From: Candidatus Altimarinota bacterium
GTDB taxonomy: Bacteria; Patescibacteriota; Gracilibacteria; BD1-5; UBA2023
Length of the DNA stretch: 40,616 nucleotides
Direction: 5' to 3'
Assembly (NCBI GenBank): GCA_028689065.1
Contig: JAQTWX010000002.1
Location: 90,656-131,271, forward strand
Positions 3,445-10,832 of this stretch are shown here, piece after piece. Position 1 is the stretch's first letter. Every line of letters starts with the position of its first letter. Position numbers and translations under genes: made by a program. The notes below the pieces were generated by a model. It worked only from the letters and a program-made list of their open reading frames with translations. It made no database searches and was not told the DNA's origin.

Positions 3445-3477
3445 TTTTACACATCTTTTACATACTATGTATAGAAT
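3445..3477 (+). promoter_or_regulatory. Tandem-repeat operator/promoter, site 1 (two-component operon)
   Basis: TTTTACA (3445-3451), 4 bases, TTTTACA (3456-3462), 9 bases, then TAGAAT (3472-3477) as the -10. Two direct 7-mers with an 11-bp period in place of a -35 is the layout of Pho boxes bound by OmpR/PhoB-family regulators. The same layout recurs at 5963 and 6779, so this regulator gene probably regulates itself. Confidence 0.72.
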
Positions 3478-3507
3478 CCGAAGGGTAGATATAGTTTTGA
3501 TTCTATA
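3470..3507 (+). repeat. Inverted repeat in the two-component operon leader
   Basis: TATAGAATC (3470-3478) and GATTCTATA (3499-3507) are perfect 9-base inverted arms separated by 20 bases; the left arm overlaps the -10. A competing stem can form between GGGTA-GA-TATAG (from 3483) and CTATACCC (from 3503). It could be an RNA structure or a second protein site. Confidence 0.45.
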
Positions 3508-3598
3508 CCCATTATAGGCTGATAAATTTTATTATAAATCCACTTTATATACACAAGGATAAAAAACCTGTCCACAAATAAACTTATCTCGATGTAAT

Positions 3599-4255
3599 AT
3601 GAAAATTCTCTTAATTGAAGATAATCGCATTCTTGTGAAAAACATCTCAGAATATCTGAAACTGAAGTCATTTCAGATAGAAACGACTTTTGATGGAATT
3701 ACAGGAAAAGAGAAAGCAAAAAACGAATATTTTGATGTAATTATCCTCGATATAAATCTCCCAGGGAAAGATTGACTTACTCTCTGTCAAGAACTTCGAG
3801 AAGAATGACTCAATACTCCTATTCTTTTCCTTACATCGAGCAATACTTCAAAAGATGTGGTCAAATGACTCAATATAGGGGCGGATGATTATCTCGGAAA
3901 ACCTTTCGATTTCGAAGAGCTTATAGCTCGAATTCTCTCGCTTGGGAGACGAAATATTTCCAATAAAATCACAACGATACAGATTGGTGATATACTTATA
4001 GATACAACAAAACGTCTCGTTACAAAGAATAATAAAGCTATGGAACTTTCTACAAAAGAATTTGATCTGCTTCAGTATCTCGTTCAAAATCGATGCACTC
4101 CAATCGATCGTCAAATACTTCTCGAAAAAGTTTGGGGTGAATTCGATGCTTATATGTTCTCTCGAACTGTTGATGTTCATATAAGTACCCTCCGCAAAAA
4201 ACTTGGAGAAGGTATTATTGAAACCAAAAAAGGATTTGGATATGTAATAAATTAA
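3599..4255 (+). CDS. OmpR/PhoB-family response regulator
   Basis: A 218-residue two-domain regulator. The receiver domain (1-120) has the acidic pair E7-D8, the phosphoacceptor D51 in ILDINLPGKDG, the T/S position in FLTSS and the conserved Lys in GKPFDFEEL. A winged-helix DNA-binding domain (about 125-218) carries ELSTKEFDLLQYL, the recognition-helix region SRTVDVHISTLRKKLG and ends KGFGYVIN. Three UGA codons (59, 70, 90) are read as Gly; codon 59 is the G of LPGKDG, a family-invariant position. The histidine kinase starts 30 bases downstream. A tandem direct-repeat operator of the type bound by this family lies upstream and at two further promoters in the locus. There is no Shine-Dalgarno sequence. 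Which signal it answers is unknown. Confidence 0.95.
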
Positions 4256-4285
4256 TTAAAATTCTCTCATCTTTAGTAACTATTT

Positions 4286-5548
4286 ATGTCTTCCATTCAT
4301 TCTCTCTCAAAACAAAAACGTCGGCTTTCGGTTCTTTTTTCGTTCGCAATTTTTCTTATCATTATTGTTCTAGATATAGGATTTCTTTCTTATAAGTATT
4401 TTGATTATCAGAAACAGGAAATTGGACAACTTTCTCTACAATCGCAAGGAATATTGAAAACCATAAGAGAAAATCCAAATATTGAGGAAAATATATTTCA
4501 AGGAAAATGACTCCCCTCTCCTATCGGAATACATAGAAATGGGACAAGCGGACAATTATGAACAAGAACAAGAATCCAGATGGAAAATTTTTTCCTCTAT
4601 GATCGACAAAATAATACCATTCTCTTCTCTCCACAAAAAGATGATGAACTGTATTTCTCCATCTTGAGTACTATACAACCAAAAACAAAGGAACGAAAAA
4701 TAATCTTTGTGCTCAACGGAAATGAATATTTCTTCTTCAATACATTTATTACACCAAAAATAGGAGCAGTATTTTTCAGCGAATCGAGGATGACTTTTGA
4801 AAATATACTCACAGATATTTTTATATATCTCATTGGAGCTATCCTTCTTTCTCTCGGAGTCTATATTCTGAGTTCTCGTTTCGTAAACAACACCCTTTCT
4901 CCTGTGGAAAAAAATATGGAGCAAATGGAACAATTTATTCACAATGCTGGACATGAACTTAAAACTCCTCTTTCTGTTATAAAGAGTTCTCTCGAGCTCA
5001 TGAAACTAAGTAAAAAGTATGATGAAGGAATTGCCGAAAGTATCCATGAACTTGATAGAATGAATAATCTCATACAGGCACTTATTCATCTCTCTACAGT
5101 TGATGAAAATCAAGAAAATTCGGAAGTGATAAATATACAGGAAGTATGCGAAAAACTCAAAAAAAATTATCTAGCATCACTGAATGAGAAACATATTTCT
5201 CTCAATATTATTACAAAAAAACCACTCTTTATTCAGGCAAACCGAGAATATACAGAAATATTTCTCAGTAATCTCCTCAGTAATGCTATAAAATATAATC
5301 AGGAAAATGGAGAAATTAATATTATTCTTGAAGAAAAAAGTCTAACATTACAAGATACAGGCATTGGTATCGCGAAAGAAAATCTCGGAAAAATCTTTGA
5401 TCGATTCTATCAAGAAAATAATACACGAACTGAAAATTCCTTTGGGATATGACTCTCCCTTGTAGATCGTATCGCTTCCGTTTATAAATGGACCGTTATA
5501 ATAGAAAGTGAGAAATGAATAGGAACAACCGTAAAAGTAAAGTTTTAG
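4286..5548 (+). CDS. Membrane sensor histidine kinase
   Basis: A 420-residue kinase that phosphorylates the adjacent regulator. It has two membrane helices (about 17-36 and 178-197) bracketing an extracytoplasmic sensor region of about 140 residues. The HisKA domain follows, with the H box HNAGHELKTPLSVIKSSLEL and phosphoacceptor His223. The HATPase domain has the N box NLLSNAIKYNQ, G1 DTGIGIAKENLGKIFDRFYQ, and G2 NSFGIGLSLVDRIA. Four UGA codons (4508, 4559, 5450, 5516) are read as Gly; the one at 5450 supplies a glycine of the G2 ATP-lid motif. There is no recognisable PAS or HAMP domain. The sensor region (GLPSPIGIHRNG..., then NNTILFSPQKDDELYFS) matches nothing I recognise. It ends in TAG. 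Confidence 0.94.
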
Positions 5549-5562
5549 AAATATAGAAAATA

Positions 5563-5589
5563 TTGATTATTCTCTATTTTCTATATAAT
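5563..5589 (+). promoter_or_regulatory. Possible promoter of the lipoprotein gene
   Basis: TTGATT (5563-5568), a 15-base spacer and TATAAT (5584-5589), inside the exact 19-mer TTCTATATAATGCCCTCCG that also forms the strong promoter at 2142-2170. The spacer is short, so strength is uncertain. The shared 19-mer is the main support. Confidence 0.55.
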
Positions 5590-5682
5590 GCCCTCCGAAA
5601 AAAGAAAGAAACAATCACCATCTTTCTCAGATACATACTTTCTCTTATTATAATATTTTACATTGCTTATTTTATAGATTTT

Positions 5683-5934
5683 ATGAAGAAATTTTCATTT
5701 TTCACAAGTATTCTTATACTGAGTTCTCTTATATTTTCTGCTTGTTCTATGGAAGAAGATGAAAAAGAAGAAGAAAATAAAAGAACTTCCATTCCATCTT
5801 CTGCATATACAGACGTAACTACTCCAGTAGTACAAACAACTGCTAATACTGTAGCAAATCCAACATCTATTACTACTCGTCAGCCGACCCAAACAGTTCA
5901 GAGAAAACATAATACAAAAACGAAGGCCTCATAA
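5683..5934 (+). CDS. Small Thr/Asn-rich lipoprotein
   Basis: An 83-residue secreted lipoprotein. The signal peptide MKKFSFFTSILILSSLIFSAC ends in a lipobox with the acylated Cys at residue 21. A charged stretch (MEEDEKEEENK) follows, then a low-complexity Thr/Pro/Gln/Asn tail ending in basic residues (RKHNTKTKAS). Upstream in-frame codons extend to 5563, but that would put 40 hydrophobic residues before a perfect signal peptide and would consume the promoter, so I chose the ATG at 5683. It lies between the kinase and the Spy-like gene and ends at a terminator overlapping the next promoter. The sequence suggests no enzymatic function; it may be an envelope stress sensor or surface linker. Confidence 0.75.
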   Translation: MKKFSFFTSILILSSLIFSACSMEEDEKEEENKRTSIPSSAYTDVTTPVVQTTANTVANPTSITTRQPTQTVQRKHNTKTKAS

Positions 5935-5962
5935 AAATATTTTTGTAAAATAAATATTTTTA

Positions 5963-5995
5963 TTTTACATTTTCATTACATAGGATTCTTATAAT
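5963..5995 (+). promoter_or_regulatory. Tandem-repeat operator/promoter, site 2 (Spy-like gene)
   Basis: TTTTACA (5963-5969), TTTT, CATTACA (5974-5980), 9 bases, then TATAAT (5990-5995). It has the same period and gap as sites 1 and 3; the second 7-mer has two mismatches. The -10 overlaps the 5' arm of the terminator at 5993-6034. Confidence 0.7.
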
Positions 5996-6034
5996 TACTC
6001 CTGTAATCTCATAAAAGAGCTTACAGGAGTAATT
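5993..6034 (+). terminator. Terminator of the lipoprotein gene, overlapping the next promoter
   Basis: AATTACTCCTGTAA (5993-6006) and TTACAGGAGTAATT (6021-6034) are perfect 14-base arms, followed by a T-rich run. Read-through RNA from upstream would form the whole hairpin. RNA starting about 7 bases after the -10 at 5990-5995 would lack most of the 5' arm. Confidence 0.85.
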
Positions 6035-6056
6035 TTTATTTTTTATCTTACTATCT

Positions 6057-6698
6057 ATGAAAACCAAAATACTTATCGGAGGACTTATCGCAGTTGTCAC
6101 AACCGCTGGAACTCTTACATATGCTGCCAATATTTCCACTGGAGCGACAAATACTGTAAAAAATACTTTGGCACGAATGCACCTGACAGGAAGTGGTGAA
6201 TTCAATAAAGAACATTTTAATAAAATGGATGATCGAAATACTGATGGACTTAAAAAAATGAACTTTCCATGACAGGGTGGATTTATAGGGAAATGACCAA
6301 TTTCCCAGCTAACTGATGCCGAGAAGGCAGAACTTGCAACTATGACTAATACCGAGAAACAAGCATTCTTTGAAGCGAAAATGACCGAACAAAAAGCACT
6401 TCATGATGCAAAAGAAGCAGTTATAGATAAACTAATAAATGGAGAGATTCTCTCTGATTCAGAAAAAGCAACACTCGCAATTATCAAGACAGAACGAGAT
6501 ACTGCAAAAACAGAACGTCTCGCACGAGAAAAACAAATAACTGAGCTCAAACCTATCATGGAAAAAATGAGAGCCGGAACGAGCCTCACAACCGATGAAC
6601 AAGCAAAACTCGATGCCTTCAGAGCAACAATGCCACAAGGAAATAAAAAAGGACAAGATGGTAAAAATGAACGAAGAAGTGGAATGATGGGAAGATAA
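6057..6698 (+). CDS. Exported Spy/CpxP-like helical protein
   Basis: A 213-residue exported protein. It has a signal peptide (MKTKILIGGLIAVVTTAGTLTYAA, cleavage near residues 23-25) and a short Gly-containing linker. A long charged, all-helical region follows (about 83-195), rich in Lys, Glu and Ala with almost no aromatics. Two LT-containing segments, SQLTDAEKAEL and SLTTDEQAKLDAF, resemble the LTxxQ repeats of the Spy/CpxP periplasmic chaperone family, though they match loosely. UGA at codons 72 and 80 is read as Gly in the linker (FPGQGG, GKGP). Its promoter carries the same tandem operator as the two-component operon. That context fits CpxP/Spy-like envelope-stress feedback, but the assignment is inference. 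Confidence 0.65.
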
Positions 6699-6717
6699 TA
6701 TGAAGTAACTTTTAAAA

Positions 6718-6750
6718 AACTTTCTCTGCAAATTGTAGAGAAAGTTTTTT
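6718..6750 (+). terminator. Terminator of the Spy-like gene
   Basis: AACTTTCTCT (6718-6727) and AGAGAAAGTT (6737-6746) form a 10-base stem with a 9-base loop, followed by TTTT. Confidence 0.88.
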
Positions 6751-6778
6751 ATTGACTCTTTGTGGAAAAAATGTATCA

Positions 6779-6811
6779 TTTTACATACGTTTTACATATG
6801 TTTCCTATTGT
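6779..6811 (+). promoter_or_regulatory. Tandem-repeat operator/promoter, site 3 (exporter operon)
   Basis: TTTTACA (6779-6785), TACG, TTTTACA (6790-6796), 9 bases, then TATTGT (6806-6811) as a weak -10. The two 7-mers are identical to those of site 1. A weak -10 is expected for a promoter that depends on an activator. Confidence 0.72.
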
Positions 6812-6842: not shown

Positions 6843-8915
6843 ATGATACTCTCCCCTCTTGTAAAAAAAATTATTACAGGAACTCTCGTTGTAAGTATAT
6901 CTTATAGCGGATACGCATATTTTTTTAAGAAAAGCACATCGAGTACTACTTTTACTACAGTTACTACGACAGTAAAAAAAGGAAATATCGAAAATTCCGT
7001 TCAAGTCATAGGAACCTCCGCTCTCGTATATGAGCAAAAGATGCAATTTAGTCAAGCGGGGAAAGTGGCTAAAATCCTTTTTAAAGAAGGAGATACAGTA
7101 AAGAAAGGAGATATTATGGCGGAACTTGATACAACCGATGTTCTTAATGATATCAAACAACAGGAAGTAAATGTTACAAATGCACAAGTTAAACTCACGC
7201 AACTCATCAAAGGTGCAACCGACAAAGATCTCCTCAATGCAGAAAATACCGTCACAAGTGCAAAAAGTAAAATTATTACTCTAGAAAATAGCAAAAAAAA
7301 TCTTCTCATTGATCAAGAAAATAAACAGAGAGATTTTCAAAGTCAGATTCTCTCCAAGCAAAATGATATAAAAAGTAAACAAGCACAGCTCGCAAATGCG
7401 AAAAATGAACTTGCTACTCTCGAAAAAACTCAAAGTAAATGATTAACTGATACCGATACGGATGTTACAAAAGTACTCGATACCGCTTTTACTGATGCAA
7501 GAAAACAGATTATTGATGCAGAATCAAGCCTTTATAACGCAGATGTTATACTTGGTATAAGCGATACGAATCGAACAAAAAATGATACCTATGAAACCTA
7601 TCTTTCTGCAAAAAATACTGTTCTAAAAACACAAGCAGAAAATGATTGGAGAATAGCAAATACTCTCGTATCTCAAGCAAAAACTTCTCTTAATATTCTC
7701 CCAACTACAGAAAACAATAGTGTGGACATTAAAGCTCTTCTTTCTCTGCTTAATCAAGTATTCGATTCCCTTATAATACTCGGAAAAGATGGAACTGACG
7801 CGATGAATGCAAGTATTATATCTTCTACTTTATCACAGACTACCATAGATGGATATGCTGGAACGTTCAGTTCTATTACTTCCGCTTCTCAATCAAGTCT
7901 TAGTGCCATAAAAACAACCATTGCAAATATCGATAAACTTACCGATCCTACGCTCATAAAAGCGAGCAATGACAATGCACTCAGTACAAAAAGACAATCC
8001 ATAGCTGATCAGGAATTTGCTTTAGAACAAGCAGAAAGAGATCTTATTAAACTTCAGAGTGATATGATATATTCTGCAAGCACATATGACGCTCAGATTG
8101 TAGCACAGGATATATCTATTCAGGATGCACAAAATTCGTTCAAGTACAACGAAGCAAATCTTGAACTCCTAAGAGCAGGAGCAACAAAAGAAGAAATAGC
8201 ACTTGCCAAAAATTCAATTACTTCCCAACAACTCGCACTTCAAAAAGTAAAAGAAAACATCAAAAAATATCAACTCGAAGCACCATTTGATGGAGTGCTC
8301 CGTAAAATCGATTTCAAACTCGGTGACAATATCATTACCAGTTCCAGTGTTACTCCAGAATACCTCTATATAGAGAACCCCAACCTTGTAGAGATTACTG
8401 CCACGGTCGATCAGCTCGATGTCGTAAAACTCAAACTCTGACAAGACGCAAAAATCGTATTCGATTCTTTTCCAACTCTCACCCTTACGGGAAAAGTGAG
8501 TGATATCAATTCCACTCCTACACAAACTTCCGGAGTAACTTCCTATACTATTAAAGTATCAATGGATAAAGGAAATCATCCGATTTTCAGTGGAATGAGT
8601 GCAAAAGTTGATATTATCATCGAAAGTAATCAAAATACTCTTATTGTCCCAACATCCTTTGTACAAAAATGACGTAGCGGATGAACAGCTTCCGTTTTAA
8701 AACGCATCGGTACTGTAGATATTAAAACGGATGTAGAACTTGGAATCAGCAACCCGAGTAATACTGAGATTAAAAGCGGAGTAAATGAATGAGATATTCT
8801 TACGAGAAAAATCAATACCTCGGTAGGAACCACTCCTACTACAAGTGGACTTCAGATACCAGGAACATGAGGATGAGGTGGAACAAGAAGCAGTAATTTT
8901 AACAGAGGAGGATAA
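6843..8915 (+). CDS. MacA-like membrane-fusion protein (HlyD family)
   Basis: A 690-residue periplasmic adaptor, anchored by an N-terminal membrane helix (about 5-25), for the ABC exporter encoded next. The first half of the lipoyl/barrel-sandwich domain is at about 60-95 (FKEGDTVKKGDIMAELDTTDV) and the second half at about 475-500 (YQLEAPFDGVLRKIDFKLGDNI). Some 370 residues of mostly coiled-coil lie between them, so the protein is far longer than a typical MacA (about 370-390). Beta-barrel and membrane-proximal domains follow, then a Gly-rich tail. Seven UGA codons (7440, 8439, 8670, 8682, 8790, 8868, 8874) are read as Gly; two sit in the terminal Gly run. It starts 53 bases after the operator and ends 39 bases before the ATPase gene. 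Confidence 0.85.
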
Positions 8916-8954: not shown

Positions 8955-9626
8955 ATGTCTCCTCTTATTCAAATGCACCAGATTACAAAATCCTATCAAC
9001 TCGGAAAGGAAGATTTAATGGTGGTAAAATGAATCGATATTGAGATACATAAAGGGGATTTTCTCTCTATCATGTGACAATCTGGATCTGGAAAATCCAC
9101 TCTTATGAATATTATCGGGATGCTCGATAATCCTACAACAGGAGAATATTACTTCAATGGACGAGATGTGGCACACTTAACCGACGATGATCAGGCGCTT
9201 ATACGCCGAGAAAATATTGGTTTCATTTTCCAAAACTATAATCTCCTTCCGAGAACAAGTGCATTAAATCAAGTAATAATGCCACTCATATATCAAAATA
9301 TCGGAAAACAAGAACGCACAGAACGTGCACTCAAAGCTCTTCAAAAAGTCGGGCTTGCCGATAAGATTAACAATCTTCCCAACGAAATGTCTGGAGGACA
9401 ACAACAACGAGTTTCCATCGCCCGAGCTCTTGTTACAAATCCATCCATCATACTTGCTGATGAACCAACTGGAGCACTCGATAGTAAGACCGGGGTGGAA
9501 ATTATGGAACTTCTCACTGAACTCCACAAAGAAGGAAAAACTATCGTACTTATCACACATGAACATGAAGTTGATGCCTATGCAAGTCGGCATATACTCT
9601 TGCGAGATGGAAATATAGTAAATTAA
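8955..9626 (+). CDS. MacB/LolD-type ABC transporter ATPase
   Basis: A 223-residue ATPase that powers the adjacent permease. The Walker A sequence GQSGSGKST occupies residues 41-49, and its first, invariant Gly is encoded by UGA at 9075-9077. This is one of the clearest proofs of UGA = Gly here. The rest of the fold is complete: Q-loop Q93, signature MSGGQQQR at 145-152, Walker B IILADEP with D169/E170, and switch His202. A second UGA is codon 26. Length and the tight IGFIFQNYNLLPRTSALNQV region match the MacB/LolD/FtsE group. It overlaps nothing and lies 12 bases before the permease. Confidence 0.95.
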
Positions 9627-9638
9627 TACCCTCAACCT

Positions 9639-10832
9639 ATGATTCTCACAGAACATATCACTGGAGCTTTAAATTCCATCATTGGAAATAAACTCCGATC
9701 AGCTCTGAGTATGCTCGGGATTATTATTGGAGTCTCCGCCATTATTATTCTTATGGCACTTGGACAAGGGACAACGAAAACAGTAGTGGACCGATTTAAT
9801 AGTATGGGTGCTAATCTTATTACCCTTTCCGCAGGACAATCCAATGCATCAAGAATTGGATGAGGAAGTAGTTCTAATAGTGCCCAACTCATCAACGACA
9901 CTTTTCTTGATTTTGTAAAAAATATACCCGGAGTAAAAGATGTATCTCCAAGTGTTTCTGCAAGCAGACAATTCATCTACGGAACTTATAACACCAATGT
10001 AAGTATTATAGGAGTACGAGGACTTTATCAATCACTCAAGAGTCTCACTGTAGTCGATGGAAACTTCTTTTCTGATGACGATGTATTAGAAGGAAATAAA
10101 GTTCTTGTTATCGGTCATCAAATTGCATTGGATGCATTTGGAACTGAAAGTCCTGTAGGAAAGGAGGTAAAACTCGAAAATGGAATTTATACCGTTATCG
10201 GAGTACTCGCAGATAATTCCCAAACCAATCGACGAATATTTGCCCCTATAACAACCGTTATGTCGAAAATATCTGGAGCTCATTACTATAGCTCTATAGA
10301 TATCGCTATCGATGACCCTACAAAAGTGGAATTTATGAAAACTTTTATAGAACGTGAACTTTTGCGTTTCACGGGCACTACTACTGCAAATGAACCTTTT
10401 ACTCTCAATACTCTTTCTGAAGTACTTGCATCCGTGCAACAAGTTACTGGGACACTCACTCTCTTTCTTGGAGGAGTTGCTGCCATCTCTCTCATAGTCG
10501 GAGGTATCGGGGTTATGAATATCATGCTCGTATCAGTCACCGAACGAACCAGAGAAATCGGAATCCGTAAAGCACTTGGAGCATTCAAGAGTGATATTCT
10601 CACACAATTCCTTATAGAAGCCCTTTTTATCAGTATCATCGCGGGACTCATAGGTATCGCTATCAGTTATGGGGTAGTCACGGTAGTAAATAAATACCTT
10701 TCCGCCGTTATTAGTACCAACTCCATTCTTCTCGCATTTGGTTCGGTTGTATTTATCGGAATATTTTTTGGAATCCTCCCTGCAAGCAAAGCTGCGAATC
10801 TGAAACCAATCGATGCACTCCGATATGAATAA
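9639..10832 (+). CDS. MacB-like ABC transporter permease (FtsX domain)
   Basis: A 397-residue permease with the MacB topology. One N-terminal membrane helix (SALSMLGIIIGVSAIIILMAL, about 20-40) is followed by a large extracytoplasmic MacB-type periplasmic core domain (about 45-270) and three C-terminal helices. The FtsX hallmark segment SLIVGGIGVMNIMLVSVTER leads into TREIGIRKALGA. It ends LKPIDALRYE, the usual family ending. One UGA (codon 75, at 9861) is read as Gly beside GSSS. With the ATPase and the long adaptor it forms a tripartite-like exporter. No outer-membrane channel gene is present, as expected in a lineage without a classical outer membrane. The substrate is unknown; peptides or lipoproteins are typical for the family. 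Confidence 0.93.

Follow-up and report, generated by a model that had tools for sequence, protein, structure and literature searches.

Three promoters of one bacterial locus carry the tandem arrangement TTTTACA-N4-TTTTACA-N9-(-10). Is this the operator of the two-component system encoded beside it, what would that system control, and how far does the circuit extend? The locus lies in a 40,616-nucleotide stretch of a 1.04-Mb genome (Candidatus Altimarinota bacterium, contig JAQTWX010000002.1), referred to below as the window, whose genes were read with code 25. An initial annotation had described a local, autoregulated envelope-response regulon in a code-25 bacterium of the candidate phyla radiation. 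The three copies, read directly from the sequence, are as follows.

3445..3477, + strand: operator and -10 of the two-component operon (TTTTACA 3445-3451, TTTTACA 3456-3462, TAGAAT 3472-3477)
5963..5995, + strand: operator and -10 of the Spy-like gene (TTTTACA 5963-5969, CATTACA 5974-5980, TATAAT 5990-5995)
6779..6811, + strand: operator and -10 of the exporter operon (TTTTACA 6779-6785, TTTTACA 6790-6796, TATTGT 6806-6811)

The 11-bp period and the 9-bp gap to the -10 are identical at all three operators, as the initial annotation had stated for positions 3445, 5963, and 6779. A TTGACA-like -35 element was not found 16-18 bp upstream of the -10 at any of the three promoters, and the box occupies that space. 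The three sites are also the only ones within the window at two or fewer mismatches to the bare pattern, in agreement with the earlier statement that no further copy exists there. At three or fewer mismatches, 19 matches to TTTTACA-N4-TTTTACA are seen in the window where 13.7 are expected, and the loose pattern is thus not rare. The window by itself could therefore not settle whether the arrangement is real, which the genome-wide search does.

The whole 1.04-Mb genome was searched by pattern, each search with a reversed control. Perfect TTTTACA-N4-TTTTACA is found in two copies, both in the window. The pattern TTACA-N6-TTACA-N9-TANNNT gives exactly three perfect matches, which are the three window promoters, and none in the reversed control; with one mismatch allowed, the genome gains one match and the control has 8. 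The frequency is not that of a random sequence, and the arrangement at the three promoters is confirmed as real and not due to chance.

Spacing was counted in 19 loci (L145-L163) fetched by kinase homology alone, two of them from G004 and one from G048; counts on loci selected for having a site are biased and were not relied on. Among spacings from 0 to 16, N6 (the 11-bp period) accounts for 30 TTACA pairs and no other for more than 5. For the distance to TANNNT, the most frequent value is 9, with 23 cases; no other value exceeds 5. The N6 pair of TTACA does not appear in 61 non-Gracilibacterial control loci, mostly from Firmicutes.

The sites also accompany the two-component system. Within the window's own family, f1, all 8 genomes that have an orthologous system carry a site, as does 1 of the 19 that lack one (Fisher P 4e-6); among these 19, G024 carries a one-mismatch site at a more distant homologue. 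The family holds 25 sites in all, and the control matches none. When G048 is left out, 29 of the 58 perfect sites in other genomes fall less than 5 kb from a kinase of the family, where 2.3% would be expected (P ~3e-32).

The genes adjoining the boxes are listed below.

3599..4255, + strand: OmpR/PhoB-family response regulator of 218 aa (Response_reg and Trans_reg_C)
4286..5548, + strand: membrane histidine kinase of 420 aa (HisKA and HATPase_c), with an extracytoplasmic segment between two long helices
5683..5934, + strand: small lipoprotein gene (MKKFSFFTSILILSSLIFSACS...), with a single TTTTACA half-site only upstream (~5656), read directly
6057..6698, + strand: exported helical protein of 213 aa, possibly Spy/CpxP-like, with a signal peptide and a predicted helical hairpin; no family or fold match
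6843..8915, + strand: MacA-type (HlyD/RND_mfp) adaptor of 690 aa (TIGR01730 above cut-off; PF13437, PF13533)
8955..9626, + strand: MacB-type ATPase (PF00005; best NCBIfam match MacB)
9639..10832, + strand: MacB-type permease, MacB_PCD and FtsX (PF12704 and PF02687 above cut-offs)

The regulator scores above the cut-offs for PF00072 and PF00486 in the profile search, giving a receiver domain and a C-terminal winged helix, and the OmpR-family assignment made earlier is upheld. Asp51, the phospho-acceptor, is invariant in the alignment of orthologues, and the recognition-helix region SRTVDVHISTLRKKLG is conserved. The best full-length solved relatives include the PmrA/BasR structures 4s04 and 8jo2. 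Scores fall far below the equivalog cut-offs for PhoB (TIGR02154, 160.6 against 296.2), PmrA (161.9 against 330), YycF (NF040534, 142.9 against 340), and BaeR (NF007982, 123.6 against 380). For this reason, the protein is assigned, from its sequence, to the OmpR/PhoB family but to no named subgroup or equivalog. The exporter is of MacAB type, as had been suggested, with an adaptor, an ATP-binding cassette (ABC) ATPase, and a MacB_PCD/FtsX permease in one gene cluster; unlike in E. coli MacB, the ATPase and the permease are separate genes.

Loci of relatives were reached via kinase homology. The named relatives are metagenome-assembled genomes of Candidatus Gracilibacteria together with SR1/Absconditabacteria, in keeping with the code-25 host proposed at the outset. 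The same arrangement is found before the orthologous regulator in G001, G002, G004, G016, G017, G049, and SR1. It is found before Spy-like orthologues in G002, G004, G005, and G017, the last of which has two such genes, each with its own site, and before MacA-type genes in G004, G018, G002 (on another contig, L143), and SR1. The conservation upstream of orthologues that the initial annotation had proposed as a check is thus found; the suggested autoregulation, the shared operator, and the exporter as a target are supported. Between congeners, the half-sites are 96-100% identical and the DNA flanking them on either side 25-44%, a comparison in which most half-site columns are fixed by the search and the informative parts are the presence of sites at these places and the unsearched neighboring columns. 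Those columns agree between both halves, with T at -2 and C/T at -1 (46 sites). The regulator promoter of G004 (L093:11230-11293) contains five TTTTACA half-sites in series with the 11-bp period, apparently a tandem expansion of the operator.

Beyond the order, repeated real sites are seen only in family f13 (SR1/Absconditabacteria); a class-wide search outside the order and f13 gave scattered matches at about the control level. The complete genome of SR1 RAAC1 (CP006913.1, L150) has sites before the regulator, an exported protein that matches LTXXQ below threshold, and a divergent MacA-type adaptor, the same target set as in the window. A further Absconditabacteria locus (L151) agrees with the window for the regulator and exported-protein targets.

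With these results, the boxes are very probably the operators of the regulator at 3599-4255, which would be an activator of OmpR/PhoB type that controls its own operon and an envelope-protection regulon, with the operator replacing the -35. The membrane kinase (4286-5548) would sense envelope disturbance and phosphorylate the regulator. The phosphorylated regulator would then dimerize, and its two DNA-binding domains would occupy the pair of TTACA half-sites (11-bp period, about -37 to -22) in head-to-tail order; head-to-tail binding of tandem half-sites by OmpR/PhoB proteins is established (PMC4660055). A box at that position leaves no room for a -35, and recruitment of RNA polymerase by the dimer to a promoter with only a -10 is the natural reading. 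The output would be the regulator's own operon, the exported helical (Spy/CpxP-like) protein, and the MacAB-type exporter. In this scheme, we infer the binding by the adjacent regulator, the activation, the signal, and the chaperone role. Ownership of the boxes by the neighboring regulator is suggested by adjacency, by co-occurrence, and by a difference at position -2 of the half-sites in G004. That genome has a second, paralogous two-component system with three sites of its own (L125:3032, 5618, and 6319). All six half-sites of the second system have A at -2 and C at -1; all six of the first have T or C at -2. The difference at -2 could possibly insulate the paralogous systems from one another.

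Several points weigh against this assignment. The genome encodes five Trans_reg_C domains, and another regulator could own the boxes. Several regulators of family f2 have no perfect upstream site. The Spy assignment, discussed below, is weak. Upstream of three f2 regulators (L103, L129, and L132), a variant TTACT-N6-TTACT or TTACG is seen with the 11-bp period and a 10-bp gap to a TATAAT-like -10, and G018 has both halves with an 8-bp gap; the gap is therefore not absolutely fixed across the order.

It is unlikely that the boxes are bound by another of the genome's OmpR-family regulators and that their closeness to the two-component operon reflects cross-control. Besides the five Trans_reg_C domains, the use of the same core by paralogous systems elsewhere (the second system of G004, and G048) would fit such a case. 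However, the sites track the two-component system across f1 and adjoin kinases of its family, the box stands at the regulator's own promoter in many genomes, and the paralogous systems of G004 differ at -2. Repression, in which the bound regulator blocks polymerase until signaling releases it, is likewise improbable. The box does overlap the promoter, and PhoB and VicR act either way according to position (PMC10294691; PMC4168254), but no -35 remains for polymerase acting alone, and a fixed 9-bp gap is expected of an activator that touches sigma and not of simple blocking. Still harder to sustain is the view that the motif marks promoters of an alternative sigma factor and is not an operator. 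The constant distance to the -10 and the 32 copies with TATAAT in G048 would suit it; it does not account for two tandem copies at a distance of exactly one helical turn, five in series in G004, a -10 of the usual TATAAT-like kind, or a linkage that is to a two-component system and not to a sigma factor. Chance similarity in AT-rich intergenic DNA, to which the frequent loose matches to the bare pattern in the window might point, was rejected as next to impossible on the genome-wide rarity, the spacing peaks in kinase-fetched loci, and the conservation across genomes.

The extent of the putative regulon differs between genomes. The initial annotation had called it local, which holds for the window genome and close relatives, but elsewhere the number of sites rises to about 30. 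In G048, 32 perfect sites are found, with 4 in the control, and 31 sites have a readable downstream gene; some of these target genes are tandem paralogues, and the sites are not all independent. A strongly hydrophobic N-terminus is present in 28 of the 31 target proteins, compared with 24 of 91 background genes from 120 kb that itself has no site (P 3e-10). The start codon lies 23-49 nt past the -10 in 20 of 31 cases. The series from three sites to about thirty in G048 is a natural one for following how regulons expand.

In other genomes of family f2, the genes behind sites include some for exported helical proteins and, as judged by eye, for Dps, superoxide dismutase, and surface-layer-homology proteins. 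A Dps-like gene has a site before it in G050 and G042, and a superoxide dismutase-like gene in G042 (L129:8488, L132:2826, and L139:3351). The regulons of these two genomes may, as judged from the genes, include oxidative stress. A wider proposal is held tentatively, at slightly less than an even chance. A single regulator-operator pair that predates the divergence of Gracilibacteria from SR1/Absconditabacteria would be a general envelope-protection switch of the code-25 lineage, with about three promoters in most genomes and about thirty exported-protein promoters in at least one, and with paralogues kept apart by change beside the half-site core.

The identity of the protein encoded at 6057-6698 was examined separately. 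It gives no match for Spy in Pfam, NCBIfam, PDB sequence, or fold searches, and the LTXXQ profile does not match it at E values up to 5; its SR1 counterparts reach LTXXQ at E 0.007-0.015, under the gathering score. Its predicted model contains a helical hairpin with a predicted local distance difference test (pLDDT) of 82-93 over about residues 90-190 and a predicted template modeling score (pTM) of 0.43. Foldseek with this model returned nothing at E < 1, and VIA-align gave a Z of at most 2.8, which does not exclude a Spy fold. Of the Spy-like label given initially, the signal peptide, the helical-hairpin model, and the LTxxE/Q-like motifs stand, and a profile or fold match is missing. The Spy/CpxP-like assignment is weakly supported.

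Other features were noted near the three promoters. An inverted repeat, TATAGAATC (3470-3478) and GATTCTATA (3499-3507), places one arm over the -10 of the two-component operon. At 5994-6033, starting at the -10 of the Spy-like gene, lies a perfect stem of 13 bp that has a short second stem inside it (minimum free energy -20.9, z -6.3) and is followed by a T-rich run; TGTAATCTCATRAAAGAGGTTAC is largely retained at the same place in congeners. The stem could be an element of the 5' leader, or else terminate the lipoprotein gene that lies upstream. The equivalent of that lipoprotein gene in G005, also after the kinase, has a one-mismatch full site at L146:1793, where the window copy has a half-site only.

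In the literature searched, which does not cover most subscription journals, no regulon defined for a transcription factor of Gracilibacteria or Absconditabacteria was found. The regulatory circuit is apparently undescribed but conventionally built. Its operator is precisely defined and its set of targets conserved; it leads to predictions that can be tested, and one of the genomes that carry it is complete and named (CP006913.1). These bacteria are regarded as reduced, and as lacking an outer membrane (PMC6851277).

The arrangement was compared with known systems. The pho box bound by E. coli PhoB also has two 7-mers with N4 (11-bp units) and head-to-tail binding (PMC4415409), together with a strict spacing to the core promoter (PMC10294691). 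The polarity is the same, with CTGTCAT in the pho box and C/T-TTACA-T here. The half-site letters differ, and the PhoB equivalog score is below its cut-off. The label of a Pho regulon was rejected on that score and because the genome has only three full sites, none before phosphate-uptake genes. PmrA/BasR likewise binds as a dimer to two tandem half-sites upstream of the promoter (PMC4660055), but its targets are others and the PmrA score is below cut-off. The reverse complement of the present box, TGTAAAA-N4-TGTAAAA, exactly fits the WalR/VicR box of Firmicutes (TGTWAHA-N4-TGTWAHA; PMC4168254), whose targets also concern the cell envelope. In contrast to that box, the one described here keeps a single orientation and a single spacing to the -10, and the YycF score is below its cut-off.

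The gene cpxP, a Spy relative, adjoins cpxRA. The CpxR box resembles the present one in the GTAAA direct repeats on the reverse strand (PMC12802237), but its period is 10 bp (N5 between 5-mers) with variable spacing, compared with a fixed 11 bp here. The core regulon of BaeSR consists of spy, mdtA, and acrD, where mdtA is the adaptor gene of an efflux operon (PMC3160322). The present system would likewise join a two-component system to an exporter and a putative Spy-like protein. BaeSR controls resistance-nodulation-division pumps in a diderm, whereas a MacAB-type ABC exporter is found here, and the BaeR score is below its cut-off. By analogy, the system would work like PhoB and PmrA (or WalR/VicR) at the DNA and resemble BaeSR in its targets.

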